Source of the DNA: Nitrospirota bacterium
GTDB taxonomy: Bacteria; Nitrospirota; Leptospirillia; Leptospirillales; Leptospirillaceae
Assembly (NCBI GenBank): GCA_021828375.1
Contig: JAKARS010000002.1
Location: 1-64,000, forward strand
Direction of reading: 5' to 3'
DNA length: 64,000 bases
Both the position numbers and the translations under genes were made by a program. The notes beneath the pieces are model-generated. The model was given only the letters and a program-made list of their open reading frames with translations, was not told the DNA's origin and ran no database searches. Within the stretch, counting starts at the first letter, position 1. The number at the start of each line of letters is the position of its first letter. This document shows positions 38,567 to 64,000 of the stretch, in pieces.

Positions 38567-38679
38567 GGAAGCTCCTTTTGGGGGGACGTTCTTTTCCCTT
38601 GAAATTTCTTTATGGATTGACTAGAATCATGAGCTCAGTGTCTTTTGCGAGTCACGCTTTTTTCTTTGTCTTCTCATGG

Positions 38680-38754
38680 GGGCGATTAGCTCAGCGGTAG
38701 AGCACTGCCTTCACACGGCAGGGGTCACAGGTTCGAAACCTGTATCGCCCACCA
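38680..38754 (+). tRNA. tRNA-Val (CAC)
   Basis: GGGCGATTAGCTCAGCGGTAGAGCACTGCCTTCACACGGCAGGGGTCACAGGTTCGAAACCTGTATCGCCCACCA. Confidence 0.96.
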
Positions 38755-38757
38755 TCG

Positions 38758-39624
38758 TTATTCTTCCCCGTTAATCTCCACACTTCTGACATCCTTCCAA
38801 AGCCAGGGCAGTTGTGGCCCATCCTCGAGACTCCCCACCCGCTTTGTGGTGCACGTCGGAGATTCGATCTTTCTCCTTCTCAAGGATGCCGTCATCTCGT
38901 CCTGCCTCTCTGACAGTGTGATGGTGAGCGGCTCGCCTGTTTTTTGGCACCAGATCACGGAATCCCGGAAATATCGATGCGAAGGGGCCCCTCCCCAGAA
39001 GGAAAAATCCCTTCCCAAGGGCCCCCGGAGGGTTTCCAGGGAGCGATCGAGTGCGATGGTCAGGACCTGTTCCAAGGCCGCGACATCATCTTCCGCCCGG
39101 TGTCGCGAGTCGTGCCTGACACCGAGGGATTTGGCCAGGTGTGAGAGCTTATGGTTTTTTTCCCGGGGGAGGAGGCTTTTGAGGATGGGAACAGTATCGA
39201 TCCCCGGATTCCCCAATGGCGCCATGTCTCTGCGCATCAATTCCCGATTGATCATTCCCATGTCGAAGGACAGGTTGTGGGCAATGACGACCTTCCCCTG
39301 GAATTGAATTCCATTCTCTTTCCAGAACTCAAAAAACGTGGGGGAATGCTCCACCATGCTGTCGTCGATTCCATGAATGCGGGTATACATTGGAGGGATG
39401 GGCGTCTCGGGATTGATAAGGGAGGTGATTCTTCCCTTGAGCCCCGATGAGTCCCAGACGGATAGCCCGATCTCGACAATCCGTGCGTCATTGTGGAATA
39501 GCAGCCCTGTCGTCTCCACATCGACAAACAGAAGATCCTCCTCGCCTTCACTCAGATGAAATGTCAGCCCCGGTTCCTTTCCGAATAATGAGTCCCGATC
39601 CCACCAGGATATTTTCCCTGTCAT
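38758..39624 (-). CDS. DnaQ-like 3'-5' exonuclease with extra C-terminal region
   Basis: LLFVDVETTGLLF; VIAHNLSFDMGMINREL; HRAEDDVAALEQVL. ATG at 39624. Confidence 0.85.
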   Translation of the reverse strand: MTGKISWWDRDSLFGKEPGLTFHLSEGEEDLLFVDVETTGLLFHNDARIVEIGLSVWDSSGLKGRITSLINPETPIPPMYTRIHGIDDSMVEHSPTFFEFWKENGIQFQGKVVIAHNLSFDMGMINRELMRRDMAPLGNPGIDTVPILKSLLPREKNHKLSHLAKSLGVRHDSRHRAEDDVAALEQVLTIALDRSLETLRGPLGRDFSFWGGAPSHRYFRDSVIWCQKTGEPLTITLSERQDEMTASLRRRKIESPTCTTKRVGSLEDGPQLPWLWKDVRSVEINGEE

Positions 39625-40666
39625 AGAATGCCGCCACCTGGCCCTCCACGATGCCATCGTGAGGCTTGTCCAGGCGGAAGCGTCCTGCTTTTGCATCCTC
39701 GACTTCGCACGGGACCGGGGACATCGTCGACCTGAATCTCACGAATAGTTTCCCGAGTGCTTTTCCCTCTGTCTCAAACATTATTCCCAAGGGGCTTTTC
39801 ACTGTGAAGGTGGACTCAAAAAGATCGCTTCGGTCGGAGAGCCAGAGCTGCCTCTTCTGAATGTCGACGGTATGGACATAGAGTCGTCTCCCCCCGGCGA
39901 CAGACAGGCCCTTTCGCTGACCTCTGGTGAGTCCGATCGCCGTGGGGATCGTTCCCAGAGGTTCTCCTGCGATGGTCCGGACATTCCAGGGAAGGGGCTG
40001 CTCCCGGTCGATCTCATGGCGGAGAAATTCTGTCACCCTTTTTTCCGAGACGAAACAGACCTCTTGATTTTCCAAGAGGCCCTCCACCGGAAAGCCAGCC
40101 TCCCGCGCCACTTCCCGGACTTGGGGCTTTGACATCCGACCCACCGGAAAGACGGTATTCTCCGGGGTTAGATCAGGGGTCCGGCTGAGAAAATAGGACT
40201 GGTCCTTGGCAAGGTCATGGGCCATGGCCAGTCCCGAGACGTTGAAATCTTCCGATCTCTTCCAGTAGGTGTAATGGCCTGTCGCCACCTTGGGGATTCC
40301 GTTTTTTTCTGCCCAACGTCTCAGGAGGGGGAGCTTCACCTTTTCATTGCATGAGGTGCAGGGGTTCGGCGTTTCTCCGACCTGATAAGCGCTCTTGAAG
40401 GAGTCAACCACATCAGATTTGAACGACGGTTCTGCATCGACGATGGCAAAGGGGATCTTCAGGATTTTTTGGCAAAGGTACTCAACCATCGGGACATGGC
40501 AACAGGTGCGTTCGCCCCATCCCTTCGAGGACTCCGCTGCATCCTCTCCCCAGAGGCGAAGGATGACCCCTGTGACATCGTATCCCTCTTTTTTGAGGAT
40601 CCATGCCGAAACAGCAGAGTCCACACCTCCGCTCATTCCGATGACAATGCTTTTACTTTTTTTCAT
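39548..40666 (-). CDS. mnmA: tRNA-specific 2-thiouridylase
   Basis: IGMSGGVDSAVSAWILKKEGYDVTGVILRLW; GETPNPCTSCNEKVK; ATGHYTYW; ENQEVCFV. Confidence 0.97.
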   Translation of the reverse strand: MKKSKSIVIGMSGGVDSAVSAWILKKEGYDVTGVILRLWGEDAAESSKGWGERTCCHVPMVEYLCQKILKIPFAIVDAEPSFKSDVVDSFKSAYQVGETPNPCTSCNEKVKLPLLRRWAEKNGIPKVATGHYTYWKRSEDFNVSGLAMAHDLAKDQSYFLSRTPDLTPENTVFPVGRMSKPQVREVAREAGFPVEGLLENQEVCFVSEKRVTEFLRHEIDREQPLPWNVRTIAGEPLGTIPTAIGLTRGQRKGLSVAGGRRLYVHTVDIQKRQLWLSDRSDLFESTFTVKSPLGIMFETEGKALGKLFVRFRSTMSPVPCEVEDAKAGRFRLDKPHDGIVEGQVAAFYDRENILVGSGLIIRKGTGADISSE

Positions 40667-41042
40667 CGCCTTCGATTGACTTTTCCTTGGACACGCCTGT
40701 GGTCATCTCACAGGTTCCATTGAAAATCACTCCTTCTTCAATCATCAGGACCGGGGTCTTGATCTCACCTTTGATGTTTGACGGTTTGACAAACTGGATG
40801 GCTTCCTGGGCCTGGACCTTTCCATTGATGGTCCCGCCACAGACAATTCGGCCGACATTGACCGTTCCTGTAATGACGGCGCCGTCCCCGACGATGAGGG
40901 TGTTTTTCGAGTGAATTTCGCCTTCGAGAATGCCGTCGATCCTGACCGTTCCTTCGAACTGCAGATATCCCCGGAAAAGTGTTTCTTTTCCAAGAAAGGC
41001 GATGATGTTGCCCTTTCCGGCGTCCTGCCCGTTATGCTTCAT
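40653..41042 (-). CDS. Bactofilin (polymer-forming cytoskeletal protein)
   Basis: IAFLGKETLFRGYLQFEGTVRIDGILEGEIHSKNTLIVGDGAVITGTVNVGRIVCGGTINGKV. Confidence 0.92.
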   Translation of the reverse strand: MKHNGQDAGKGNIIAFLGKETLFRGYLQFEGTVRIDGILEGEIHSKNTLIVGDGAVITGTVNVGRIVCGGTINGKVQAQEAIQFVKPSNIKGEIKTPVLMIEEGVIFNGTCEMTTGVSKEKSIEGDEKK

Positions 41043-41898
41043 CCTGTGTTCCTTTTTTTAAAGAGGCCTTCTCCGATAATTTTGTGATCAAATCCTCGAG
41101 TTCGTCCATTCTATTAAAACTGAGCTCGACCTTCCACCCTTTTTTTTCCTTTTTGATTGTGGCCCGGCATTGCAGCGCGGAGCTCAAGACTTCAGAGTTC
41201 TCCCCGATCCATTCCTGTACCTTGCTGTCTTTTTCAATTTTCGCTTTGGGGGCTTTCGCAATCTGCTCTTCCAGCGCTCTCACCGACAATCCCCGGGCGA
41301 TCACCTTGGCGGCCCATTTTCTCTGGGCCTCGGGCTCCAGGGACGAGAGAATTTTGGCATGGCCGAAGGAGATATCACCCTTTCGCAATGACTCTTTCAC
41401 GTCGGGATCCATCTCGAGAAGCCGCAAATAGTTGGCGACCGATGACCTTTTCATCCCGAGGTGTTCCGAGATGTTTTCCTGGGTCCAGTCAAATTCCCGA
41501 GAGAGCCGTTCGAGCCCTTCGCCGATCTCGAGAGGGTTGAGGTCACTTCTTTTGAGATTCTCCACCAGGGCGATTTCCAGCAGCTCCTGATCGGTCAGGT
41601 CTTTGATGATGGCATCAATATCTTGCCATCCCAGCCTCTCGGCGGCTCTGAATCGGCGTTCCCCCGAGACAAGGGTATAGGCTGCGTCTCGCCTGACCAC
41701 GATCACCGGATGGAGGAGCCCGTGTCTTTCGATGGAATGTGTCAGCTCCTCAAGGGATTCTTCCGTGAAGGTCTTTCTCGGTTGAAACGGGTTGGGGTGG
41801 ATTTCCTTCATCGGAATTTTTGTTGTGGGCCCCCCTGTCGATCTTTCTTCATCCCCATAGAGCGAATCGATTCCTCTTCCAAGGCTGATCTTAGCCAT
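41032..41898 (-). CDS. parB: Chromosome-partitioning protein ParB
   Basis: IHPNPFQPRKTFTEESLEELTHSIERHGLLHPVIVV; LVSGERRFRAAERLGW; LGMKRSSVANYLRLLEM. Confidence 0.97.
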   Translation of the reverse strand: MAKISLGRGIDSLYGDEERSTGGPTTKIPMKEIHPNPFQPRKTFTEESLEELTHSIERHGLLHPVIVVRRDAAYTLVSGERRFRAAERLGWQDIDAIIKDLTDQELLEIALVENLKRSDLNPLEIGEGLERLSREFDWTQENISEHLGMKRSSVANYLRLLEMDPDVKESLRKGDISFGHAKILSSLEPEAQRKWAAKVIARGLSVRALEEQIAKAPKAKIEKDSKVQEWIGENSEVLSSALQCRATIKKEKKGWKVELSFNRMDELEDLITKLSEKASLKKGTQDEA

Positions 41899-42661
41899 AG
41901 GCCAGAATCTCCTTTGCTAATGTCATGTAGGATTGGGCCCCCTTGGAGAGCACATCATAGAGGACAGCGGGTTTACCGTGGCTGGGTGCCTCGCCGAGAG
42001 TGACGTTTCGGGGGATCACACAGGAAAAGACCTCGTCGGGAAAATGCTTTTTCAGCTCCTCGAGGACTGAGGTCGACAATTTGTTTCTTTTGTCGTACAT
42101 CGTTGGGAGAATTCCCTCAATCTTCAGTCCCGGGTTCCATCTCTGCCGTACGCGTTCCATGGTTTTGACGAGTTGTCCCAGACCCTCCAGGGCAAAAAAC
42201 TCACACTGGACCGGAATCAGGACTGAGTTGGCTGCCACGAGGGCATTGAGCGTTATAAATCCCAAGGAGGGAGGACAGTCCAAAATGATGTAATCGTACC
42301 GGGAGCTCTCGGGCTGGGCCAGCCTCTCCTTGAGAATGTTCGCCCTCTCATTGGGGTCGGCTCCCGCCACCTCCGGCTCAAATCCTGCCATGGCGACGGA
42401 GCAGGGAATGGCATCGAGAAAGGGAAGGGCGGTTTTCTTGAGAACCTCGGCCATCGTCTTTTTCCCCGAGAGGAATTCGTAGGAAGAGGAGGGAGGGAGT
42501 CCGGCTGTCAGTCCCAGACCGCTTGAAGTGTTTGACTGAGGGTCAAGGTCGATGACGAGCACTTTTTTTTCTTCGACGGCCAGAGAGGCCGCAAGATTGA
42601 TTGTTGTGGTCGTCTTTCCCACCCCGCCTTTTTGGTTGGCAATAGCGACTATCTGGGCCAT
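41891..42661 (-). CDS. parA: Chromosome-partitioning ATPase ParA/Soj
   Basis: MAQIVAIANQKGGVGKTTTTINLAASLA; DLDPQSNTSSGLG; ATG at 42661. Confidence 0.96.
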   Translation of the reverse strand: MAQIVAIANQKGGVGKTTTTINLAASLAVEEKKVLVIDLDPQSNTSSGLGLTAGLPPSSSYEFLSGKKTMAEVLKKTALPFLDAIPCSVAMAGFEPEVAGADPNERANILKERLAQPESSRYDYIILDCPPSLGFITLNALVAANSVLIPVQCEFFALEGLGQLVKTMERVRQRWNPGLKIEGILPTMYDKRNKLSTSVLEELKKHFPDEVFSCVIPRNVTLGEAPSHGKPAVLYDVLSKGAQSYMTLAKEILAYG

Positions 42662-42707
42662 TTTCTTTACTCCTCCCGTGAATGTTCCACGTGGAACATT
42701 TTGAAAA

Positions 42708-43310
42708 TCAGCCTGAAAATTCAAGGAGAAAAAGGGAAAAGGTGATGTGTTTTTCCCACTCTCGAACCCCCCCATTTATGACACAGGAGAGGAGAGGTTG
42801 GCAAGCAAGATGAGGATCTTTTCCGAACCGGATGAAAAAGGCCGGGGGGGAAAGATGTCTCTTGACATTTTTGTCAGAGAGAAAATCGTGGACGGTGATG
42901 GCCTTCATGAAGACCAGAGGGGAAAAGACAGGTGAGTCTAGGGCGGGAACTACGGTGACATTTGAAAGTGAAAGATGGCGTGAGACATGATCCAGAAAGA
43001 TTCGCTTCTTCTGAACCCTCTCCACGAGAAGGTAGGAGTGGTCGTGGTCGAGAAGGGCCATGATCAGGCCGGGTGAGCCATTGCCTGATCCGAAGTCAAT
43101 GCGCGGGAGGGAATTCGGGAGGCGGCCCTGGAGGGCATGAAAGGCCAGAATGGGTTCCAGGAGAAGATGTTCCCGAACCTGTTCCTGGGAGTGATATCCC
43201 GTGAGACGAATGTGGGTGTTCCACTCCAGCAGAAGGGAGGTGTAGTGGTCGAGGGCGGTCATCTGCCGGGGAGTCAGGGAGGGGCAGAGCGTCTTGTGGG
43301 TGGGATTCAT
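42708..43310 (-). CDS. rsmG: 16S rRNA m7G methyltransferase
   Basis: [44 protein letters not shown]; located next to mnmG. Confidence 0.88.
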
Positions 43311-45148
43311 GCCGAGGGAGGGAGCTCTTTTGTGAGGTAGATCCGGAGAAGATCGATGGCCCCTGGGGTCATTCCCCGTAAGGAGAGCGCCTGATGGAGG
43401 GTGGTGGGACGGGATTTTCTGAGGCGCGTTCGAACCTCGTTGGAGAGGCCCGGAATGTCCAGTTCAAAAAAGGAGGGGGGGATGGGAAGATCTGACATCC
43501 GGTCCCATCGCTCCATGGAGATTCGGACGTAGCCTTCGTATTTGATGTCCTGCTCCAAGGCGTCGATCCAGAGGGGGGGGACAGTCGAAAAATCGATGCC
43601 TTGTTGCTGAAGGATCTGTCGAAGGGTCACATCGGGGGAGCGAAGACGGTGGTGGAGCGTTTTCCCTTCCTGACGGGAGGAGTGCAGGAGCGCCCTCAGC
43701 GAGTTCTGATAATCGATCCGGGCATTGAAGGCGTCAATCTGTGGAGGGGAGAGCAGTCCCAGGGCGAGGGCCTGAGGGGTCATTCTCTCCACCGCATTGT
43801 CATTTCGAATGTAGAGCCGGTTCTCTGCGCGGCTGGTGAACATCCGGTAGGGTTCATCAATGCTGTGGGTCACAAGATCATCGACCATGACCCCGATATA
43901 GGAGGATTGACGGTCGGGAGTCCAGGAGGAAAGTCCTTGTGACTGTCGGGCGGCATTGATTCCTGCCACAAGACCTTGTCCGGCCGCCTCCTCATATCCT
44001 GTCGTTCCGTTGATCTGTCCGGCTAAAAAGAGATTGGGGGTCGATTTGACCGCCAGGGTATGGTGGAGCTGATCGGGGAAGACAAAGTCGTACTCCACCG
44101 CATAGCCGGGGCGAAGAATGATGGCGTTTTCAAGCCCGGGAATGGAGGAAAGAATTTGCTCCTGAACATCGACCGGGAGGCTGGTGGAGATGCCATTCGG
44201 ATAGAACTCATCGACATCAAGACCTTCGGGTTCGATAAAGATATGGTGGGTCAAGTGTTCCGGAAACTTCACGATCTTGTCTTCGATCGAGGGGCAATAC
44301 CGGGGGCCGATCCCATGGATTTTCCCGGAATAGAGGGGTGACCTGTCCAGGTTCTTCTGAATGATGTCGCGGGTCTCTGGGGTGGTGTGTGTCAAATAAC
44401 AGGGAAGAGGAGGGCCTCCGAAGAAAAGAGCCTCGGGTGGGGGAGAGAGCTGGGAGAAAAAAGGAAGAGGCTGATCTCCGGGCTGGGGGTCCATCCGGGA
44501 AAAATCGATGGAACGACCAAGAAGTCTTGGGGGGGTTCCCGTCTTGAGGCGTCCGAGGGAAAGTCCGCATTCCCCGGAGAGAAAGTGAGAGAGTGAAAGG
44601 GATGATCGTTCGCCGCCCCTCCCCCCCGAGGTGGAGGAAAGACCAATATGAAGATGGCCATTCAGGAAGGTTCCTGAGGTGAGGACAAGGGCGTCAAAGG
44701 AAATTCGTGATCCGTCGGAGAGAGCGAGGGAGGAAAGACGATCTCCGGATCGCTCGAGAGAGACGACCTCCCCCTGTCGAAGAAAAAGGAGGGGGTGGGA
44801 GTCCAAAAGGCGGCGAGAGAGTGTCCGATAACGGTGACGGTCGCATTGGGCACGAATGGCCTGGACGGCGGCTCCTTTCCGGGTATTCAGGACCCGGAGC
44901 TGAAGGGCCGACTGGTCGGCAAGAGCGCCCATGGCCCCGCCCATCGCATCAATTTCCCGGACAATATGGCCTTTTCCAATTCCCCCAACGGAGGGATTGC
45001 AAGACATTTGACCGATGAAATCAAGGTGGAGGGTCAGAAGAAGGGTGCGTGATCCCTGGCGAGCCGAGGCATAGGCGGCCTCAATGCCGGCATGTCCTCC
45101 CCCCACAACGACGACATCCCAATGATTCTTTTCACGAGGTTGGGTCAT
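43307..45148 (-). CDS. mnmG: tRNA uridine 5-carboxymethylaminomethyl modification protein MnmG
   Basis: [49 protein letters not shown]. Confidence 0.98.
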
Positions 45149-45149
45149 T

Positions 45150-46472
45150 TTATTTTCCTAGGCAAAAGCGGGAAAAAACCCGATCGTAGATTTCTTCGGT
45201 GGAAATCATACCCGTTCCATCTTCCAATAGATTGCGTGCCTCTTCAAGGGAGGAAAGGGCCAGATCGAAGGCATTGGATCGGAGAGAGTCTTCGGCCTGG
45301 GTCAGGGCCTTCAAAAAAGAAGAGAGGGCCTGGGACTGGCGCTCGGAATCCAAAAGGGGATTCGAAGTGGTATGGTGCGAGTAAAAGTCTTCGGCAAGAG
45401 ACACGAGGGCGTCAAGGAGGCGCCGCAGGCCTTTTCTGGTGCGGGCCGAGACGACAAAGTCGGGAAGGAGCGTGGGGGGATGAGGCGCAAGATCGGCCTT
45501 GTTCCAGATCGTAAAGGATGGGGTCCGGGTGGAAAAGGGAAGAGTCGCGAGTGTCTCCGGCGAGGTGACCCAAAGGAGACGGTCGACGTGGGCGATCGTT
45601 TTTTTGGCCTTGGAAATTCCCATGCCCTCGATCAGATCATTGGAAGAGCGAAAGCCAGCCGAATCCAGAAGAAGAAGATCCCCAAAGGGAAGGGAGAGGC
45701 GACCCTCGAGGAGATCGCGGGTCGTTCCAGGGTAGGGAGACACAATGGCACGGTCAGACTGGAGAAGGCGGTTAAAAAGAGAGGATTTTCCGGAGTTGGG
45801 GGGACCCGCCAGCAGGACTGAGAAGGAAGAAAAGACGCGTCGGTTTTTTCGAAAAAGAGAGAGTTGTTCGCGAGAGAGGCCCTGAAGGGCGTGAATTTTC
45901 GGAAAAAGGAGAGAGTGGGAATAGGCGTGTTCGGAGTCAGTCAATTCCTCAGGGTAGTCAAGAAAGGCATAAAAGGAGGCAAGTAAATCGAGAAAGGCCT
46001 CTTTGATCGTGACAAGGGGATGATCTTCCGGATGGGAGAAGGAGGAATGCGCCGACAAAAAGTCCCCATAGGTCGGGGCCGTAATCATCCGGTGGAGAGA
46101 TTCGGCCTTGAGGAGGGAGATCTTCCCGTTCTGATAGGCACGCAGGGAAAATTCTCCCGGTTTTGCCTGTCGGATTCCGCACTCTTCGATGGAATGCAGA
46201 ATGGCTCGGATATTTTGAGGGTTCCCATGGGCATGGATCTCGACCACATCTTCCCCGGTAAAGGATTGCGGCGCGGGAAAAAAAAGGACAAGGACGGAGT
46301 CAATGGCCTGTCCATGGGTTCTTAGTGTCAGAAGGGACGCTTTTCGAGGGGCCGGGCAGGGGGACTCAGGAAAAAGAGGCTGAATCCGGGGCCAGAGATT
46401 GGCTCCCGAAAGACGAAGAATGCCGACGGGCTGCGGAACGAGGGCCGTCACCGGAGCGACGATGGAGTCCAT
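45150..46472 (-). CDS. mnmE: tRNA modification GTPase MnmE
   Basis: [36 protein letters not shown]-terminal FCLGK motif. Confidence 0.97.
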
Positions 46473-46496
46473 GGCTAGGAACTCTCGACGAAGGCC

Positions 46497-48050
46497 TTAT
46501 TTGGCAGGAATTGTTTTGAAGACATAACGCATGAGCACATATTGTTGTCCGATGGTCAGAAGATTGTTGACAATCCAGTAGAGAACAAGTCCAGAGGGAA
46601 AATTCAGGAAAAAGAAGGTCATCACAACCGGAAGGAAAAGCATGATCCGCCGTTGCATCGGGTCCGGAGTCGACGGTGTGAGCTTGGTTTGGATCACCAT
46701 GGTAATCCCCATGATGATGGGGAAGATGTAATAGGGGTCCTTGATGGAAAGATCGTGGATCCAGAGAAGAAAGGGGGCCTGTCTCAGCTCGACGGTGTTG
46801 TTCAGGATGTTGTAAAGGGCCACAAAAACAGGAATTTGGACAATGACGGGAAGACAACCGCCTAACGGGTTGATGCGGCGTTCCTTGTACAGCTCCATCA
46901 TGGCGGCATTGAGTTGGGCCTTGTCGTCCTTGAATTTTGCCTGGAGCTTTTTGATCTCAGGCTGCAGCTGTTGCATTTGATTCATGGAGCGGAAGGACAT
47001 ATAGGCCAAGGGAGAAAAAAGGATCTTGATCAGAAGCGTCACGAAGATGATGGCAAATCCGTAATTTTGCATGTGCGTATAAAGGGTGGAGAGAAAGACG
47101 AAAAGAAACTTGGCAAGGAAGCTGACAAGAGTGATCCGTCCAAAGAGAAACCAGCCAAAATCGACGGTATCGAGAAGTCCCGGTTCGGCTGACTTCAGGA
47201 GGGAGTATCTCTTCGGCTCTCCGGTGAGGGTGAGGGTGGCATGAGCATTGTTGAAGGAAAGCCGGAGAAAGGAGTTGGTCTTGTCCTTGATGATTTCGGT
47301 GGAGGCAGGGAAGCCTTTGAGGGAGATATATCCAATGAAGTATTTGGTTTCATTTCCGACCCAGGTGAGGGAGGTCGGAGGGAAGACCTCGGAAATGTCC
47401 TTTTTGAACTCATTCATCTTTCCATCGGGAGTGCCGTAAATGGGACCCTGGAATTCCGTTCCGATAAATTGGGTTTCATCGGACATCCCGAAATTCAGTC
47501 CGGGAAGAAAGACAAGGTGAAGATGGTCCGGATTGTCCACCGTGACGGACACATGATATCCCTGGGGAGCCAGGGTATAGGAGAGGGTCACCGGGTGGTT
47601 GTTGAAGGAGTAAACAAGGGAAAGAGTGGACGGAGTGGTGGCCACGAGATTGTTGGAGGGGAGGGGGGCTCCATTGTAGGCCGTTCGAACAAGCGTCAGA
47701 GGAAGAAGTCCATTCTTGTCTTGAACGACAAGACCTCCCCCCATGAATCCTGGCTTTGAGCGAAGAAGATCAATATTCGATTTCTTGTCGGAGGTGAAGT
47801 AGGAGAGGAGTTTCCATCCGGTCATCGTGCCGGAGGTCTGGGAGAAGGAGAGGCGGATGTCTTTGTTCGAAAGGGAAAGAAGGGAGGACTCCATATCGTT
47901 GATCATCGGGACAGAAATCAGATTGGAGGAAATGATTCCCTTGCCATTCGTCGGAGGCGGAGATGCGGACTGGTGAGTGGAGAAATAGTAATAAAGAAGA
48001 AAGTTAAAGCCCAGGACGATGGCAATGAGGGGAAGCATTTTCTTTAACAT
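46497..48050 (-). CDS. yidC: Membrane protein insertase YidC
   Basis: 517 aa; periplasmic domain and FKDDKAQLNAAMMELYKERRINPLGGCLPVIVQIPVFVALYNIL. Confidence 0.97.
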   Translation of the reverse strand: MLKKMLPLIAIVLGFNFLLYYYFSTHQSASPPPTNGKGIISSNLISVPMINDMESSLLSLSNKDIRLSFSQTSGTMTGWKLLSYFTSDKKSNIDLLRSKPGFMGGGLVVQDKNGLLPLTLVRTAYNGAPLPSNNLVATTPSTLSLVYSFNNHPVTLSYTLAPQGYHVSVTVDNPDHLHLVFLPGLNFGMSDETQFIGTEFQGPIYGTPDGKMNEFKKDISEVFPPTSLTWVGNETKYFIGYISLKGFPASTEIIKDKTNSFLRLSFNNAHATLTLTGEPKRYSLLKSAEPGLLDTVDFGWFLFGRITLVSFLAKFLFVFLSTLYTHMQNYGFAIIFVTLLIKILFSPLAYMSFRSMNQMQQLQPEIKKLQAKFKDDKAQLNAAMMELYKERRINPLGGCLPVIVQIPVFVALYNILNNTVELRQAPFLLWIHDLSIKDPYYIFPIIMGITMVIQTKLTPSTPDPMQRRIMLFLPVVMTFFFLNFPSGLVLYWIVNNLLTIGQQYVLMRYVFKTIPAK

Positions 48051-48085
48051 CTAAATGGCACTTTCTTTATTGTGTGGTGAGGAGG

Positions 48086-48286
48086 TCATGGAAAGTCGAT
48101 GCCACCGGGATGAAAGGGGTGACACCGCAGAATCCTGAAAATGGATTTGATCAGGGCTCGATGAAATGGATATTGGTTGAAGGACAGGCGGGCGTATTCA
48201 GAGCAGGAAGGATAAAAACGGCAGGATTGGGGGAGAAAAGGAGAGATATACCTCTGATAGAGAGAAATCAAACCCTGCATCGTCAT
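48086..48286 (-). CDS. yidD: Membrane protein insertion efficiency factor YidD
   Basis: [36 protein letters not shown]...[16 protein letters not shown]. Confidence 0.95.
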
Positions 48287-48606
48287 GCCTTCAGCCGTGA
48301 AAGCGTTTTTCGGGCCTGAACCATCTGGTCGAGTAACTGATCAAAGGACGTAGTCAGCGCGGGATTCCGGCCCATGATGACATAAAAACCCGGAGGGAAG
48401 CCAACGGTTAATCGATAGGCTTCCCTGAGGCGTCTCCGGACACGGTTTCTGAAAACAGCCTTCCCTATCTTTTTTCCCACGAGTACGCTGAGACGATAGT
48501 CGCTGGAATTCTGACAGAGAAGGACAAAGGCCGAGGAGACGACCTTTATGCCGGGAGATTCGATGATGCGTTGGATTTCACCACGGGTAAGCGAGACAGG
48601 CTTCAA
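48283..48606 (-). CDS. rnpA: Ribonuclease P protein component
   Basis: [27 protein letters not shown]; between yidD and rpmH. Confidence 0.92.
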
Positions 48607-48618
48607 TCTCGAGTCGCT

Positions 48619-48753
48619 TTAAACGGAAAGCTTGTAGCGACCCTTTGCCCGTCTTTTTTTGAGAACTTTTCTCCCGGCCGTTGTGGCCATGCGTTTTCTG
48701 AAGCCGTGGGTGCGGGCACGGCGAAGATTGCTGGGATTAAAGGTCAAAGACAT
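48619..48753 (-). CDS. rpmH: 50S ribosomal protein L34
   Basis: Hand translation: [44 protein letters not shown] (44 aa); absent from the ORF track, probably because it is short. Confidence 0.95.
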
Positions 48754-48783
48754 GAAAAACTCCTTCTTAAGTTATTCGAAAAA

Positions 48784-49245
48784 TTACTGCGCAGTCTCCG
48801 GAACAATCTGGATCTTGAGGGAGCAGTGAACCCCATGACCGAGGTTGACGGAGAGAACATGTTCGCCGAGCTCGCGAAGAGGAGATTCAATATGAATCTG
48901 CTTCTTGTCGAGGGCCACCTTGTGGGCGGAGAGGAGGTCAACGATATGCATGGAGGTGACAGATCCGAAGATCTTGTCGTTTTGTCCCACCTTCACCGGA
49001 ACGGAAAGAACAAGTTCGGAGAGGGTCTGCGCCAAGGTCTGGAGGCGTTCCTTTTCTTTCAGGGCCGCCTTCCGGATTTTTTCCTTATGCACTTCAAGAG
49101 CGGCAATTTCCGATTTTCCTGCGAGAACACACAGTTGGTTCGGAAGAAGATAGTTGCGGGCATATCCGGAAGATACGGACACAAGATCACCGGCATCGCC
49201 AAGATTGTCAATGTTCTGTTTCAGGATAACGTTCGTCTTGCCCAT
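48784..49245 (-). CDS. rplI: 50S ribosomal protein L9
   Basis: VILKQNIDNLGDAGDLVSVSSGYARNYLLPNQLCVLA; IFGSVTSMHIVDLL. Confidence 0.95.
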   Translation of the reverse strand: MGKTNVILKQNIDNLGDAGDLVSVSSGYARNYLLPNQLCVLAGKSEIAALEVHKEKIRKAALKEKERLQTLAQTLSELVLSVPVKVGQNDKIFGSVTSMHIVDLLSAHKVALDKKQIHIESPLRELGEHVLSVNLGHGVHCSLKIQIVPETAQ

Positions 49246-57725: not shown

Positions 57726-58010
57726 TCAGGGATGTTGTCCCGTCCAGGACTCGGGACGGAATCCCTCCTTGGAAAGCTCGAAAGTATCTTTGAGGTCCGT
57801 GATCATGATCATCTTGATGGCATGGTGTTTGGCAAGGTCATCACAGATTCCGACGCAGATTTCACAGCCTTTGCAGCGATCAACGGCAACGAAGGCCGTT
57901 TTGGCGGCGTTATCGTAGAGGATGGTGTTGGCCTCGGGGCAATACTGGGTGCAGAGGCGACAGGCGGTTTCACTGCAGATAGCTTGGTCGATATGCGCAA
58001 CAAGATACAA
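57726..58010 (-). CDS. 4Fe-4S ferredoxin-type (delta) subunit of a 2-oxoacid:ferredoxin oxidoreductase
   Basis: CSETACRLCTQYCPE and CKGCEICVGICDD; last gene of the operon. Confidence 0.8.
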   Translation of the reverse strand: MYLVAHIDQAICSETACRLCTQYCPEANTILYDNAAKTAFVAVDRCKGCEICVGICDDLAKHHAIKMIMITDLKDTFELSKEGFRPESWTGQHP

Positions 58011-58031: not shown

Positions 58032-58727
58032 TCAGACGGAGGCCTTTTGGCTCTTAGCGGCCCAGCCGTGATCCTGGGCATATTGATAGGCGGCGGCAAT
58101 AACGGCCATGTTGCTCTTCAGAAGCTGCTCTTTTTTGGCAAATTTCTTTTCGATCACATTGTCGAGAGCGGCCGTGCCTCCGGAGACGACAAATCCCTTT
58201 CCGAGAAAACGTTCACGGACAGACTGCTCGAGGGATTCCATCGAGGGGATGCCGAGGATTGACGCGATGGCTCCCACCATTGCCATGTTTGTGGCGAGAT
58301 CGGTTCCGCCGACTTCCCGGGCCATGGTTGTGGCGGGAAGGTAATGGATCCGTGCCTGACGCTCCTCGAGTTCCCGCACCTCATCGGGCTGCAGGGGAAT
58401 CGGGGTGTCGGAGTTGATGAGGACGACACCGTTTTGCTTGAGTCCGGAATAGAAGGGCATCGTATAGGATTTTCCGTGAGTGATCACCTGAGGATGGAAA
58501 ATCATGATCACGTTGGGGTAGATGATCTCCCCAATTTCATAAATTTTGTCGATGGCGATGCGGACGTAGGATTCAACCGGAGCCATGCGCTTCTCGGAGC
58601 CGAAAAAGGGAACAAGGGTGCTTTCCCCGCCGTTGATCACCATCCCGTTGCTCAGGATGTGGGAGGCGGTGACGACTCCCTGGCCTCCGATGCCGGCCAT
58701 ACGGATGTTGTAACGCTTGAGTTGCAT
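58032..58727 (-). CDS. 2-oxoacid:ferredoxin oxidoreductase gamma subunit
   Basis: YNIRMAGIGGQGVVTASHILSNGMVINGGESTLVPFFGSEKRMAPVESYVRI. Confidence 0.92.
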   Translation of the reverse strand: MQLKRYNIRMAGIGGQGVVTASHILSNGMVINGGESTLVPFFGSEKRMAPVESYVRIAIDKIYEIGEIIYPNVIMIFHPQVITHGKSYTMPFYSGLKQNGVVLINSDTPIPLQPDEVRELEERQARIHYLPATTMAREVGGTDLATNMAMVGAIASILGIPSMESLEQSVRERFLGKGFVVSGGTAALDNVIEKKFAKKEQLLKSNMAVIAAAYQYAQDHGWAAKSQKASV

Positions 58728-58792: not shown

Positions 58793-59656
58793 CTACTTCT
58801 TGGCTTTCTTGGAGGTATCGATGGAATCAAGATAGGCCTTGGCCTCATCGGAGATGATCTCCATGAAACCGTAACGCTTCGATTCGATCTCCCGGGCATC
58901 GTCAAGAACCTTCGGGGTCGGGATGGCGTATTCGATGTTGCAGGAGGTGTAGGCCTGAATAAAGGTGGGGCCGACTTCCCGGGCAATCATGACGGCTTTT
59001 CTTACCACGGAAGCCACCCGGGTCGGATTGGTGGGGGTCAGACGGGCAATGTAGGCAACCCCTGAGGTCTGGGCCAGTCCAATCATGTCCATCTTGTCGA
59101 AGAGCTTGCCCTTGGGGGCCATCTTCAGAAGGGCACCGCGCTCGGTCATGCCGCTCTCCTGACCTCCGGTATTTCCATAGACTTCGTTGTCGAGCATGAT
59201 GGTGGTAAAGCGTTCCTTGCGGAACCAGGAGTGCATCACGGCGCTAAAGCCGATGTCCGCCAGTCCGCCGTCACCTGCCATCACGACCACATCCTTGGCC
59301 TGATCCTTGAAGCGGACTTCAAGGCCACGCTTGAGGCCGGAGGCCACCGCATTGGTGTCTCCATAGTTGCCGTAGATGAAGGGGATCGAGGTCTGGGTCA
59401 ATGCGAGACGACCGCATCCGGCCGTTCCGATGAGAATGGTATGCTCGGGGTTGGGGAGTCCCACCATCGTGAGCCGGATGAAAAGGGTCATGGCGCACCC
59501 GGCACACATGGGGTGCTCCTCGAGGACCTCCTTGAAGGAGCCCATTTCGGAGACCTTTTTCTGTTTCCCGTAAGGCCCGCGCTCCACGAGGTCCACGTAT
59601 TCCTTGGTCATGTACTTCTCCCAACCGGGAGTGATGGTCATATTCTTAAAGCTCAT
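58793..59656 (-). CDS. 2-oxoacid:ferredoxin oxidoreductase beta (TPP) subunit
   Basis: HPMCAGCAMTLFIRL; VVVMAGDGGLADIGFSAVMHSWFRKERFTTIMLDNEVYGNTGGQESGMT. Confidence 0.95.
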   Translation of the reverse strand: MSFKNMTITPGWEKYMTKEYVDLVERGPYGKQKKVSEMGSFKEVLEEHPMCAGCAMTLFIRLTMVGLPNPEHTILIGTAGCGRLALTQTSIPFIYGNYGDTNAVASGLKRGLEVRFKDQAKDVVVMAGDGGLADIGFSAVMHSWFRKERFTTIMLDNEVYGNTGGQESGMTERGALLKMAPKGKLFDKMDMIGLAQTSGVAYIARLTPTNPTRVASVVRKAVMIAREVGPTFIQAYTSCNIEYAIPTPKVLDDAREIESKRYGFMEIISDEAKAYLDSIDTSKKAKK

Positions 59657-59740: not shown

Positions 59741-60985
59741 CTAAAACACAAATTTCTTGTTCGGGAAGATCGTCTGAAGGATCATCTCTGTGGGCATGGA
59801 CATCCCGCCGTAAACACGAGGTCCGGGGACGATCTCTGCCTTGGAGTGTCCGTACAGTGCGGTGACGATTTCACGATGAAGCCATCCCATGTAATTAAAC
59901 TCGGGGACGATGATTCTCTTCGCGTGCTTGCAGGCCTCGCGAAGTTCCGGCGTGGGGAAGGGCCGAATCGAACGGACCTTGATGAGTCCGATCTTGGTGT
60001 TGTGCTCCTCTTCCGCCTGACGGACAGCCTCCCGGGACTGGGAGACGGCGCTCCCGGAAGCGATCAGGATGGTTTCTGCCTCTGGGTTGACGACCTCGAT
60101 CAGGCCCCCCATGTACTTGTTGATGTAGCGACGGGCTCTTTCGTTGGCGGCCCAAACTTCCTGCTGCCAGGAGGCATGCACCTGATAGCTGATGAAGTTG
60201 CTCTTCTGGATCGGCGCATCGCGGGAAAGACGGGCCGGGGGATTTTCGTTGTCCATTGCCGGGACGGCTTCGGCATAGGGATCTCTCGGGGGAAGCTTGA
60301 TGTCCTTCGAGGGGATGTTGACATAGCCGCGGGCATGGGTGACAAAGAATCCGTCCACCGCCACCGCCACGGGAAGGGTGACCTCAGGCCGCTCGGAAAT
60401 GATGAAGGCCTTCATGGTGTAGTCGAAGAAGTCCTGCTGATTCTCGCCGTGCAGGAGGATAAGACCGGAATTGAGGAGATAGGCGAGCTCGACATTGTCG
60501 GGCTGGATGGCGAGAGGGGCATTGACCACCCGGCACATGATCAGGAGAACGGCGGGAATGCGTCCCCCTGGCCAGGAGGCGATGACTTCCATGCCTCTCA
60601 TGAGTCCGGGACCGGCGGTGGCGGTCATGGACCGGGCGCCTGCTCGGGAAGAGCCGGCAATGGCCGACATCACGCCGATTTCTTCTTCTCCGCGGAAATA
60701 CTCTTTGACATATCCTTCGGCCCAAAGGGAGCCCACCTGCTGCATGGTCTCGCTCTGGGGGGTGATCGGGTAGGAGATGGCGACGTCGACGTTGGAGCGG
60801 CGAATGGCCTCCTTGGCGGCTTCGGACCCTGTAATGAACGCTCTTTCCCGGGGGGCTTCGAAGAACATGTATTCCGGGGTAACGACCTTCTGTCGATCGC
60901 CCGCGGAGAGTTCGCTCTCGGGGGTTCCCTTGACTTCAGGGGCTTTGCCTGCCTGGACGTCTTTGACTCCTGCCGAATCGGACAT
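59741..60985 (-). CDS. 2-oxoacid:ferredoxin oxidoreductase alpha subunit
   Basis: ITGSEAAKEAIRRSNVDVAISYPITPQSETMQQVG; AGARSMTATAGPGLMRGMEVIAS. Confidence 0.95.
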   Translation of the reverse strand: MSDSAGVKDVQAGKAPEVKGTPESELSAGDRQKVVTPEYMFFEAPRERAFITGSEAAKEAIRRSNVDVAISYPITPQSETMQQVGSLWAEGYVKEYFRGEEEIGVMSAIAGSSRAGARSMTATAGPGLMRGMEVIASWPGGRIPAVLLIMCRVVNAPLAIQPDNVELAYLLNSGLILLHGENQQDFFDYTMKAFIISERPEVTLPVAVAVDGFFVTHARGYVNIPSKDIKLPPRDPYAEAVPAMDNENPPARLSRDAPIQKSNFISYQVHASWQQEVWAANERARRYINKYMGGLIEVVNPEAETILIASGSAVSQSREAVRQAEEEHNTKIGLIKVRSIRPFPTPELREACKHAKRIIVPEFNYMGWLHREIVTALYGHSKAEIVPGPRVYGGMSMPTEMILQTIFPNKKFVF

Positions 60986-61409: not shown

Positions 61410-62084
61410 TCATTCGGCATGTTCGTCGAGACCTGCGGCGAGATCATGGCGAAACTCCTCTGGAATGTGGAGGGCCTTTGTCTCGTCCCATTTCCAGTCC
61501 GGACGTTTTTCGGGAGCCTTGACGAGATTCTGGGAATGGGCAATCCCTTCCGGTGTGGCTCCCCAGGGAGTGAAGCCGGAGTCGGAGAGAAGGGCCGAGA
61601 TCTCCCGCGTCAGACTTTTCAAAAGGTCGAGCTCCCGGACATCGAGATGAATGTGGCCCGTCGGGGCCAGGGCATGGTCATCAAGAAGAAGAATGGTTCC
61701 GCAGGAATCCCGGATGCTGTCGAGGTGCTCAAGGAGAGAATTCAGTCGTCCCTTGGGAATCCCGGAGAGAAGAGTGATTCCCGAAGAGAAGACAAGGGTG
61801 TCTGCCGGCTTGAAATCGGAAACGTGGGCCAGGTCAATGGCGGGGATCGTCTCCTCGAAGAAGCGCATCAGGCGGCGGCGCTCCTCATCGGTATCATTCC
61901 AGCCCCAACGGGTCGACGATCCGATCATGAGCGTGGGACGTTCCGAGGTCAGAATCAATCGGGCAAGGGATCGCACATCATGAGAAGCGGCGTGTGTGGG
62001 TGTCATCGTGGTCTCTCGCATATAGTGTGGTCGGTTCTGAACGAAAGGAAGAGCTTCCGTGACGGTTTGTCGGTCTGAAGTCAT
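61410..62084 (-). CDS. Hypothetical protein downstream of the hydrogenase-like module
   Basis: Open ORF with no family I recognise; same strand as the module. Start uncertain, alternative ATG at 62006. Confidence 0.6.
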   Translation of the reverse strand: MTSDRQTVTEALPFVQNRPHYMRETTMTPTHAASHDVRSLARLILTSERPTLMIGSSTRWGWNDTDEERRRLMRFFEETIPAIDLAHVSDFKPADTLVFSSGITLLSGIPKGRLNSLLEHLDSIRDSCGTILLLDDHALAPTGHIHLDVRELDLLKSLTREISALLSDSGFTPWGATPEGIAHSQNLVKAPEKRPDWKWDETKALHIPEEFRHDLAAGLDEHAE

Positions 62085-62153: not shown

Positions 62154-62645
62154 TCAGGAGGGGGGAGGGGGAGACCCAAAGGCCCGGAGGACTCCTTCTG
62201 CAATGGCCTCAGGAGGAGGCGGACATCCGGGAACGCTGACATCGGGGGGAAGAATGGAAGAAAGTCCATCGTGGGTCGCGTAGCTTCCCCGAAACACGCC
62301 TCCGGAGATGGCGCAGTCGCCAACGGCCAGGACCCGTTTCGGAGCGGGCATCGCCTGGTGGGTGGTTTCGAGGGCCTCTTTCATATGACAGCTGACCGGT
62401 CCGGTGACCAGAAGGATGTCGGCATGGCGCGGGGAGGCAACAAATGAGAACCCCCGGCTGGACAGGGAGGTGACGGGATTTTCCAGGGCCCAGAGCTCGA
62501 GCTCGCATCCATTGCAGGAGCCGGCATCCACATGACGGATCGAGGCGCTATGGCGAAACGGGCCTCGGCCTGTCTCTTCCTGAGTCCTGACGGGGGATTC
62601 GGTCAGTGTGCCTGTCTTCAAAATCTTCCAGAGAAGTTTCCACAT
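62154..62645 (-). CDS. NuoB/HyfI-like small subunit
   Basis: RHVDAGSCNGCELELWALENP; ILLVTGPVS; AVGDCAISGGVF; VPGCPPPPEAI. Confidence 0.92.
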   Translation of the reverse strand: MWKLLWKILKTGTLTESPVRTQEETGRGPFRHSASIRHVDAGSCNGCELELWALENPVTSLSSRGFSFVASPRHADILLVTGPVSCHMKEALETTHQAMPAPKRVLAVGDCAISGGVFRGSYATHDGLSSILPPDVSVPGCPPPPEAIAEGVLRAFGSPPPPS

Positions 62646-62654
62646 GGGAGTCTC

Positions 62655-64000
62655 CTAAAGGTCCGAGGCGCTGTAGCTCGGATTGAAGGATTTGTTGATC
62701 AGGGGAAAGTCGGCCACGAGATTGCCGGGAACCGAGGCTTCAAGCGCATGCCACAGAAGGGACGAGCCGTCCGCGATATGGGCCTCACCAAGAATCTTTC
62801 CCGGGAGGATCCGGACCCATCCCAGAACCTCTCCGCGGAACCCCTCCACAAGGCCGGTTCCTTCCCGGGGAGCCGGAGGGTCCGGGATCGTCGCGCAGAT
62901 GTCGGGTCCGGGAAAGCTTGTCAGGAGGGCATGTGTCAGTCGCAGGGATTCAAATATTTCGAAAAAACGGATCCGGACCCGGGAGGCAACGTCTCCGACA
63001 TGGTCGAGCGCCAGAGCGGGCGCAAAGCGGTGCACAGGGTCTTCCCGATGGTCGATGCGAAGATCCCATCCCTGGCCGCTGGCGCGGCCGGCCACGCCGC
63101 CGATTCCCAGCCTGCCGGCAGTCTCCGGAGAGAGAATGCCCGTATTCTGGAATCGATCCTGAAGCCCCCCGTGATCGGCGTAAATCCTTTCAAGAAGGGT
63201 GACCTCGGCCTGAAGCCGTTCGTTCTCCCGGAGAAGGGTTTCGATCATGGCTTCGGAGAGGCCTGTCGAGACACCTCCGGGGACAACCGAATCAAAGAGG
63301 AGACGGTGGCCGAAAAGGGACAGGTTGATGCGATGCATGGCTTCGCGGAGGGGGTGATAGAGGGAGAGGGCGACAGCGAGTCCCGCATCATTTCCGAGAG
63401 CCCCCAGGTCGGCCAGATGATTGGCGACTCGCTCCCTCTCCAGCAGAAGGGCCCGGACAAATCGGACCCCCTCTGAGATCTCGATATCCAGGGCCTCTTC
63501 GATGGCCTTTGAAAAGGCCAGCGAGGATGCCACCGCCGAATCCCCTGAAATCCGTGAGGCCAAGCGGGCAGCCTCCGGGAGACTCCGTCCGCGAAAAAGG
63601 CGGGCGATTCCCTTGTGGGTATAGCCCATCCGGGTCTCCAGGCGGAGGACCTTCTCCCCCACAACGGAAAATCGGAAATGACCCGGCTCGATGATGCCGG
63701 CGTGAACGGGACCGACGGGAATCTCGTGGACGCCTTCCCCGCGGACCCTCACGAAAGGATAGTCCTCCTCCTGGGCCAGGCGTTTTGGGGGGAAGGGGGA
63801 CGGTGAGAGCGGGGGGTGGCTCCAGAGGCCGTGATCGATCCAGGGACGAAGGTCGGTCAATCCGTCCGGGATGAGCCCAAAGAGATCGTGGATCGTCCGT
63901 TCAAAGCGGACAGCAGTCGGGAAGACTGAGGAGAGGGACGGAAAGGACGCGGCGTCCTTCGGGAGGGAAAGGGACAGGAGAACAAGTCCTTCCCGGAGCA
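62655..64000 (-). CDS. HyfG/HycE-like large subunit (NuoCD-type fusion), truncated at the window edge
   Basis: PVGPVHAGIIEPGHFRF...RMGYTHKGIARLFRGRS is HycE/NuoD-like. Hand translation upstream of the track's TTG start stays open to the edge: FPSLSSVFPTAVRFERTIHDLFGLIPDGLTDLRPW, NuoC-like. Confidence 0.9.
   Translation of the reverse strand, partial: LREGLVLLSLSLPKDAASFPSLSSVFPTAVRFERTIHDLFGLIPDGLTDLRPWIDHGLWSHPPLSPSPFPPKRLAQEEDYPFVRVRGEGVHEIPVGPVHAGIIEPGHFRFSVVGEKVLRLETRMGYTHKGIARLFRGRSLPEAARLASRISGDSAVASSLAFSKAIEEALDIEISEGVRFVRALLLERERVANHLADLGALGNDAGLAVALSLYHPLREAMHRINLSLFGHRLLFDSVVPGGVSTGLSEAMIETLLRENERLQAEVTLLERIYADHGGLQDRFQNTGILSPETAGRLGIGGVAGRASGQGWDLRIDHREDPVHRFAPALALDHVGDVASRVRIRFFEIFESLRLTHALLTSFPGPDICATIPDPPAPREGTGLVEGFRGEVLGWVRILPGKILGEAHIADGSSLLWHALEASVPGNLVADFPLINKSFNPSYSASDL

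Follow-up and report, generated by a model that had tools for sequence, protein, structure and literature searches.

The window, a stretch of 64,000 nucleotides from a Nitrospirota contig (C54), ends inside hyfG, a gene for a HyfG-like large subunit of which about 71 N-terminal codons lie outside the window. The TTG start of this gene is the choice of the ORF caller, and the real start may differ. Read on along the contig, hyfG belongs to a six-gene operon with the order hyfB-C-E-F-G-I (Table 1). The original prediction had named HyfB-, HyfC-, HyfE- and HyfF-like subunits and a HyfA-like ferredoxin as the remaining components; the first four are indeed encoded just outside the window and a HyfI-like subunit is also present, but the ferredoxin is not. 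The same six-gene order is found again in other members of the family and the phylum and at the annotated plasmid loci; hyfE is unlisted in the Azospirillum record, whose gene table is incomplete, and some Nitrospirota copies carry a second hyfF-like gene.

Table 1. Genes and sequence features of the locus (positions in the window; "contig" marks positions counted along the whole contig)
Feature	Position	Strand	Remark
hyfB	contig 67302-69353	minus	outside window
hyfC	contig 66337-67311	minus	outside window
hyfE	contig about 65661-66329	minus	outside window
hyfF	contig 64183-65658	minus	outside window
hyfG (HyfG-like large subunit, Ehr complex)	62655-64000 in window, on to contig 64211	minus	518 aa, NuoC-NuoD type fusion
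R220-S225 (RISGDS), in place of hydrogenase RVCGIC	63537..63554	minus	alignment to HycE
N510-L518 (NPSYSASDL), in place of DPCYSCTD; chain ends here	62658..62684	minus	alignment to HycE
hyfI (HyfI/NuoB-like small subunit, 163 aa)	62154..62645	minus	four N2 cluster cysteines: Cys44, 47, 111, 141
N-terminal stub MWKLLWKILKTGTLTES of small subunit, remnant of lost HyfH ferredoxin subunit	62595..62645	minus	match to E. coli HyfH N terminus
Gene X (224 aa), divergent PF02552 relative (CO dehydrogenase/acetyl-CoA synthase epsilon-like)	61410..62084	minus	candidate partner only
2-Oxoacid:ferredoxin oxidoreductase (OFOR) alpha, PorA-like	59741..60985	minus	neighbor, possible functional partner
OFOR beta, PorB-like	58793..59656	minus	neighbor
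OFOR gamma, PorC-like	58032..58727	minus	neighbor
94-aa two-cluster ferredoxin-like protein, possible OFOR delta subunit or carrier	57726..58010	minus	neighbor

The hyfG product joins an N-terminal NuoC-like part (PF00329) to a NuoD/hydrogenase-like part (PF00346 and, weakly, PF00374). Its nearest named relatives come from Nitrospirae bacterium metagenome-assembled genomes (UBA4572, 93% identity), and one relative from the same family (G004) is presumably Leptospirillum ferrooxidans. The closest solved relative is subunit 5 of the E. coli formate hydrogenlyase, HycE (PDB 7z0s chain E), to which a profile built from 17 family members aligns over 441 positions (E=3.8e-75), bearing out a relationship to HyfG/HycE that had been claimed by eye. 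An AlphaFold model of the large subunit, based on a six-row alignment, reached a mean pLDDT of only 39.7 and was set aside.

In the alignment to HycE, both motifs that hold the Ni-Fe ligands are replaced, with a family consensus of R-I/V-S-G-D-S/T at the first and N-P/L-S-Y-S-G-x-D-L at the second. The sole cysteine of the protein, residue 439, lies outside both motifs, and the whole 518-aa chain holds no CxxC pair elsewhere; the four NiFe ligands are thus absent and are not supplied from another part of the chain. Whereas E. coli HycE and HyfG run about 32 residues past the second motif, the window protein stops at it, and the motif forms the exact C-terminal end in 54/54 related sequences that carry it. 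Among the operon genes, none encodes a hydrogenase maturation protease. The large subunit is therefore, as had been predicted from the loss of all four Ni-coordinating cysteines, without a NiFe site as far as its sequence tells, which makes the known H2 chemistry impossible.

These replacements are not confined to one genome. Orthologues with 51 to 93% identity occur in 19 of the 21 genomes from the same family, the two genomes without one being incomplete assemblies (78% and 71%). Residues R220, S222, G223, D224, N510, S512, Y513, S514, and D517 are invariant in 17/17 family members that are 50 to 93% identical to the window protein. The signature formed by R[IV]SGD[ST] and a terminal NKSFNxSYSGxDL is kept within the family and also in many other Nitrospirota and on plasmids of proteobacteria, which argues against decay; Cupriavidus metallidurans CH34, Variovorax, and Azospirillum carry the same signature on plasmids or chromids, and Burkholderia and Rhizobium have variants of it. 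A pseudogene was ruled out by the invariant motifs and the absence of stops. In a phylum-level search, 224/396 genomes matched at E<=1e-60, a count that takes in some real hydrogenases at about E=1e-70 to 1e-78 (e.g., loci L126 and L127, with CGIC, DPCFSC, and the C-terminal extension), so that the true number is somewhat below 224.

Large subunits of the group 4 type that lack the Ni-Fe cysteines define the energy-converting hydrogenase-related (Ehr) complexes in the excerpts of PMC6349859 and PMC4378227, and we use the term in this sense. According to the parts of the literature consulted, such complexes have been published from Sulfobacillus (PMC4378227), from candidate phyla, where a pairing with formate dehydrogenase (FDH-Ehr) was proposed (PMC6349859), from comammox Nitrospira (PMC10284858), from ammonia-oxidizing archaea (PMC10432482), and from M. 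tuberculosis (Rv0081-Rv0087; PMC6728331), so that the kind of complex found here is already known. The excerpts of all five papers give the function as unknown, with redox-coupled charge translocation raised as a suspicion in this literature, and four of the five cite Marreiros et al. 2013. As described there, the complexes of Sulfobacillus, comammox Nitrospira, and M. tuberculosis resemble the one studied here in their group 4-like large subunit without Ni-Fe cysteines, their antiporter-like and NuoH-like membrane subunits, and their HyfB/HyfE homologues. Given that the window complex combines the loss of these cysteines with antiporter-like HyfB and HyfF, a NuoH-like HyfC, and HyfE, all encoded together, it is almost certainly an Ehr complex, as the original prediction had suggested. 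One contig (L102:1-11422, genome G025) carries two differing Ehr operons in tandem, one of the SGTD type and one of the SGDT type.

A midpoint-rooted maximum likelihood tree of 45 rows, from which Ehr sequences of Geobacter, Sulfobacillus, Mycobacterium, and ammonia-oxidizing archaea are absent, united all its Ehr rows, including those that retain parts of the ferredoxin module, in one clade (100/100) apart from HycE/HyfG, the other group 4 hydrogenases, and NuoD. This agrees with the earlier view of a relative of hydrogenase-4 and complex I that is not a canonical NuoCD. Within the Ehr clade, the window's family first joins Burkholderia, Cupriavidus, and Variovorax (99/97), then Rhizobium and Azospirillum (100/99), and it branches apart from most other Nitrospirota. 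This placement, in a tree with one very long branch (the second Variovorax copy) and uneven amino-acid composition, suggests horizontal transfer of the Ehr operon.

The membrane arm retains the residues associated with proton movement. In HyfB and HyfF, the glutamate of TM5, the lysine of TM7, and the glutamate of TM12 (NuoM numbering 144, 234, and 407) are present, with few exceptions, in the roughly 40 sequences compared for each protein; the TM7 lysine is lost in E. coli HycC. Acidic residues of HyfC and HyfE are conserved, and the HyfC positions matching NuoH E157, D213, E220, and E228 are so in 39/39 sequences. Nearly all Ehr copies additionally have a HyfC loop, THLELTMxHE[A/G], with a 3-residue insertion and two histidines, neither of which is present in E. 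coli HyfC, HycD, or NuoH. Since the corresponding loop of complex I sits near the quinone chamber, this histidine-bearing loop is a candidate part of a remodelled site. The large subunit also differs from complex I: the tyrosine beside the conserved arginine of NuoD (R-x-D/E-Y; RLDY in the organism's own NuoD), which binds quinone in complex I, is a glycine in the window protein (R-I-S-G).

The small subunit matches MbhJ at 4.6e-34 and keeps the CxxC...C...C pattern of cluster N2. Its start, MWKLLWKILKTGTLT, aligns with the N terminus of E. coli HyfH at 53% over 15 residues, a score reached by 0.04% of shuffled N termini. In the operons inspected (family, phylum, and annotated plasmid loci), there is no separate HyfH-like ferredoxin gene, and the window's operon encodes no HyfA- or HyfH-like ferredoxin subunit and no flavin or NADH subunit. 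With HyfH reduced to an N-terminal stub, its first helix fused to the small subunit, N2 is the only FeS cluster with recognizable ligands in the operon. Relatives hold what look like intermediates: a complete HyfH-HyfI fusion in the second Variovorax operon (E=1e-20 to HyfH), a longer HyfH remnant with a degenerate cluster motif at L137 (E=1e-10), and reduced versions of HyfH at L141 and L145. This series indicates that the ferredoxin module was lost stepwise, and the stub that is left may still anchor the small subunit to the membrane.

Some of these relatives stand out in other respects. In the second, divergent set of Ehr-like genes on plasmid 3 of Variovorax sp. PBL-E5 (L153:261-2476), the small subunit is joined to a complete two-cluster ferredoxin domain, and this set sits a few kilobases from a standard six-gene Ehr operon. 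The copies at L141 and L145, also divergent, have hyfB last in the gene order, keep part of the ferredoxin domain, and show PGNPP or PGQPP at the site of the fourth N2 cysteine, so that even N2 may be altered in them.

The genome encodes further complexes of related types. A separate hydrogenase on contig C35 (about 36000-49000, L064) has the intact ligand motif RICGVC; encoded with it are a small subunit of the Tat type, a cytochrome b, a protease-like protein of its own, HypD, and further Hyp-like proteins (all but the large subunit and HypD were named from the appearance of their sequences). The Hyp and maturation genes to which the original prediction had pointed thus exist in the genome, but beside this hydrogenase and not beside the Ehr operon, and they give no argument for processing of the Ehr large subunit. 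Separate NuoD and NuoF genes show that the genome has its own complex I genes, which makes another route to ferredoxin possible. As a search for NuoF found proteins of this type in the window's family as well, the Ehr complex is not the family's only relative of complex I.

On the other side of hyfI, gene X, the three Por-like genes, and the gene of the small ferredoxin-like protein follow on the same strand throughout the window's genus, wherever the contig reaches far enough. The ferredoxin-like protein matches below the Pfam cut-offs, with its CxxC motifs visible in the sequence. Gene X is related to PF02552 proteins (hhalign 93.6%, E=2e-7), and its own relatives match PF02552 at 1e-28 to 1e-39; it changes fast, with an invariant C-terminal tail, EEFRHxLAAGLDExAE. 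Gene X adjoins the operon only in this genus, and in the family's other genera X and the Por genes are non-adjacent. Elsewhere, a PF02552 gene directly precedes hyfB in G118, with an OFOR-beta-like stretch beside it, and two such genes do so in G272; OFOR or PF02552 genes lie several kilobases from the operon in G130, G126, and G004, and OFOR genes lie about 5 kb away in G029. At most other loci the link is absent, and the proteobacterial plasmid copies have unrelated neighbors. The genomes compared are related and not independent, and the link between OFOR and the Ehr operon is suggestive only.

Our best explanation of the whole, to which we give a probability of roughly one-half, is a six-subunit Ehr complex acting as a redox-coupled proton pump that works at N2. 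It would consist of HyfB, HyfC, HyfE, HyfF, the CD-fused HyfG, and a HyfI that absorbed the HyfH stub. A soluble carrier would dock directly at the former HyfH site, with electrons entering or leaving at N2, and the former NiFe cavity at the junction of N2, HyfG, and HyfC would handle a small redox partner, with the quinone pool as the likeliest choice. The redox step would then drive, or be driven by, proton movement through HyfC, HyfE, HyfF, and HyfB. Its most general element, a redox-coupled ion pump, is somewhat more probable than the whole; electron partners and direction can be proposed only tentatively. Against the explanation speak the glycine in place of the quinone-binding tyrosine of NuoD and the genome's own complex I genes.

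Several other readings compete with this pump. The complex could chiefly be an ion transporter resembling Mrp antiporters, with the hydrogenase-like arm as a structural or regulatory relic that does no redox work. Its antiporter residues are intact, the operon is self-contained without a dehydrogenase, and neither an electron-input subunit nor a known active site is present. Yet a relic would have no need for the strict conservation seen across phyla in the four N2 cysteines and in the remodelled pocket motifs, and we regard this possibility as improbable. Similarly improbable is a pump whose remodelled pocket would serve to reduce one particular small substrate, by analogy with the archaeal sulfane reductase MBS (PDB 6u8y), a homologous non-hydrogenase. 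The strict conservation of the new pocket motif and the Ehr-specific insertion with histidines in the HyfC loop would fit such a role, but the hosts are very different (aerobic rhizobia, nitrifiers, and acidophiles) and share no common substrate gene nearby.

A partnership with formate dehydrogenase, or with another dehydrogenase encoded elsewhere, is suggested by formate hydrogenlyase being the closest solved relative and by the FDH-Ehr complexes put forward for candidate phyla in the excerpts of PMC6349859. However, no dehydrogenase gene lies beside the operon at the loci inspected, and HyfA/HyfH, through which formate dehydrogenase would connect, are missing, so that we consider it quite improbable. 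Overall homology to both families might finally suggest a working hydrogenase whose ligands are unusual, or else the NuoCD of complex I. Displaced ligands are ruled out by the single cysteine, next to which the missing C-terminal extension also speaks against a hydrogenase; NuoCD is ruled out by the tree, in which the Ehr rows, the hyfG product among them, are separated at 100/100 from NuoD and hydrogenases; and besides, the genome has separate genes for NuoD and NuoF and a hydrogenase whose motifs are intact. There is hardly any likelihood left for either.

For the redox-coupled pump at N2, the most speculative points concern the carrier and the direction. In the window's lineage, where OFOR adjoins the operon, ferredoxin is the leading candidate for the carrier. 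Because this link is absent in most other lineages and on the plasmid copies, ferredoxin may be wrong or lineage-specific, and we think of it as a possible partner with the odds somewhat against it. With close relatives in Rhizobium and Burkholderia, whatever general function there is would seem to extend beyond ferredoxin reduction for the reductive TCA cycle. It is tempting to speculate on a reverse mode, in which the complex would consume proton-motive force and provide the neighboring OFOR with reduced ferredoxin, although we hold this direction to be rather unlikely. Less likely still is the narrowest version, in which the Leptospirillum-type Ehr complex would be the missing quinol:ferredoxin reductase that, driven by proton-motive force, feeds low-potential electrons into the reductive TCA cycle, a cycle that the window's lineage presumably uses; after loss of the ferredoxin subunit, ferredoxin would dock on N2 as the sole FeS cluster. 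For organisms that run this cycle with high-potential donors, a relative of complex I, namely, NUO-2 in Nitrospina, has been proposed to bring electrons to ferredoxin by reverse flow (PMC3578206).

Set against known systems, the window complex is closest to formate hydrogenlyase and hydrogenase-4 (E. coli Hyc and Hyf) in fold and in its subunit set of HyfB, C, E, F, G, and I, and differs from them in lacking the NiFe ligands, the C-terminal extension, and the HyfA/HyfH ferredoxins and in the HyfC loop with its 3-residue insertion and two histidines. With complex I (NuoCD, NuoB, NuoH, and NuoLMN) it shares a homologous core, the N2 ligand cysteines, and the proton-path residues, but it falls into a separate clade, its operon has no NADH module, NuoI, or NuoA, and its small subunit has the hydrogenase-type CxxC. 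The large and small subunits are also homologous to those of archaeal MBH and MBS (PDB 6cfw and 6u8y), of which MBS is a non-hydrogenase relative, too; the similarity of the large subunit is lower than to formate hydrogenlyase, and MBH keeps its NiFe ligands.

In the excerpts of the published Ehr accounts (PMC4378227, PMC6349859, PMC10284858, PMC6728331, and PMC10432482), we found neither the HyfH stub and the series of ferredoxin-module loss nor the HyfC loop signature nor the OFOR linkage, and among titles and abstracts there was no account of an Ehr complex in Leptospirillum. Ehr complexes are known from nitrifiers, mycobacteria, soil proteobacteria, and acidophiles. The window copy places constraints on them that can be tested: N2 alone remains for electrons in what the operon encodes, the loss of the ferredoxin module was stepwise, the active-site replacements form a fixed signature that different phyla share, and a ferredoxin-dependent CO2-fixing enzyme adjoins the complex in one genus. 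The last point touches on how ferredoxin is reduced in high-potential chemolithoautotrophs with the reductive TCA cycle, which is an open question (PMC3578206). Several Nitrospirota Ehr operons, at L109, L136, and other loci, have flanking genes that belong to a single large cluster (c12); its inspected members resemble two-component regulators of the NtrB/NtrC type, hinting at regulated expression.
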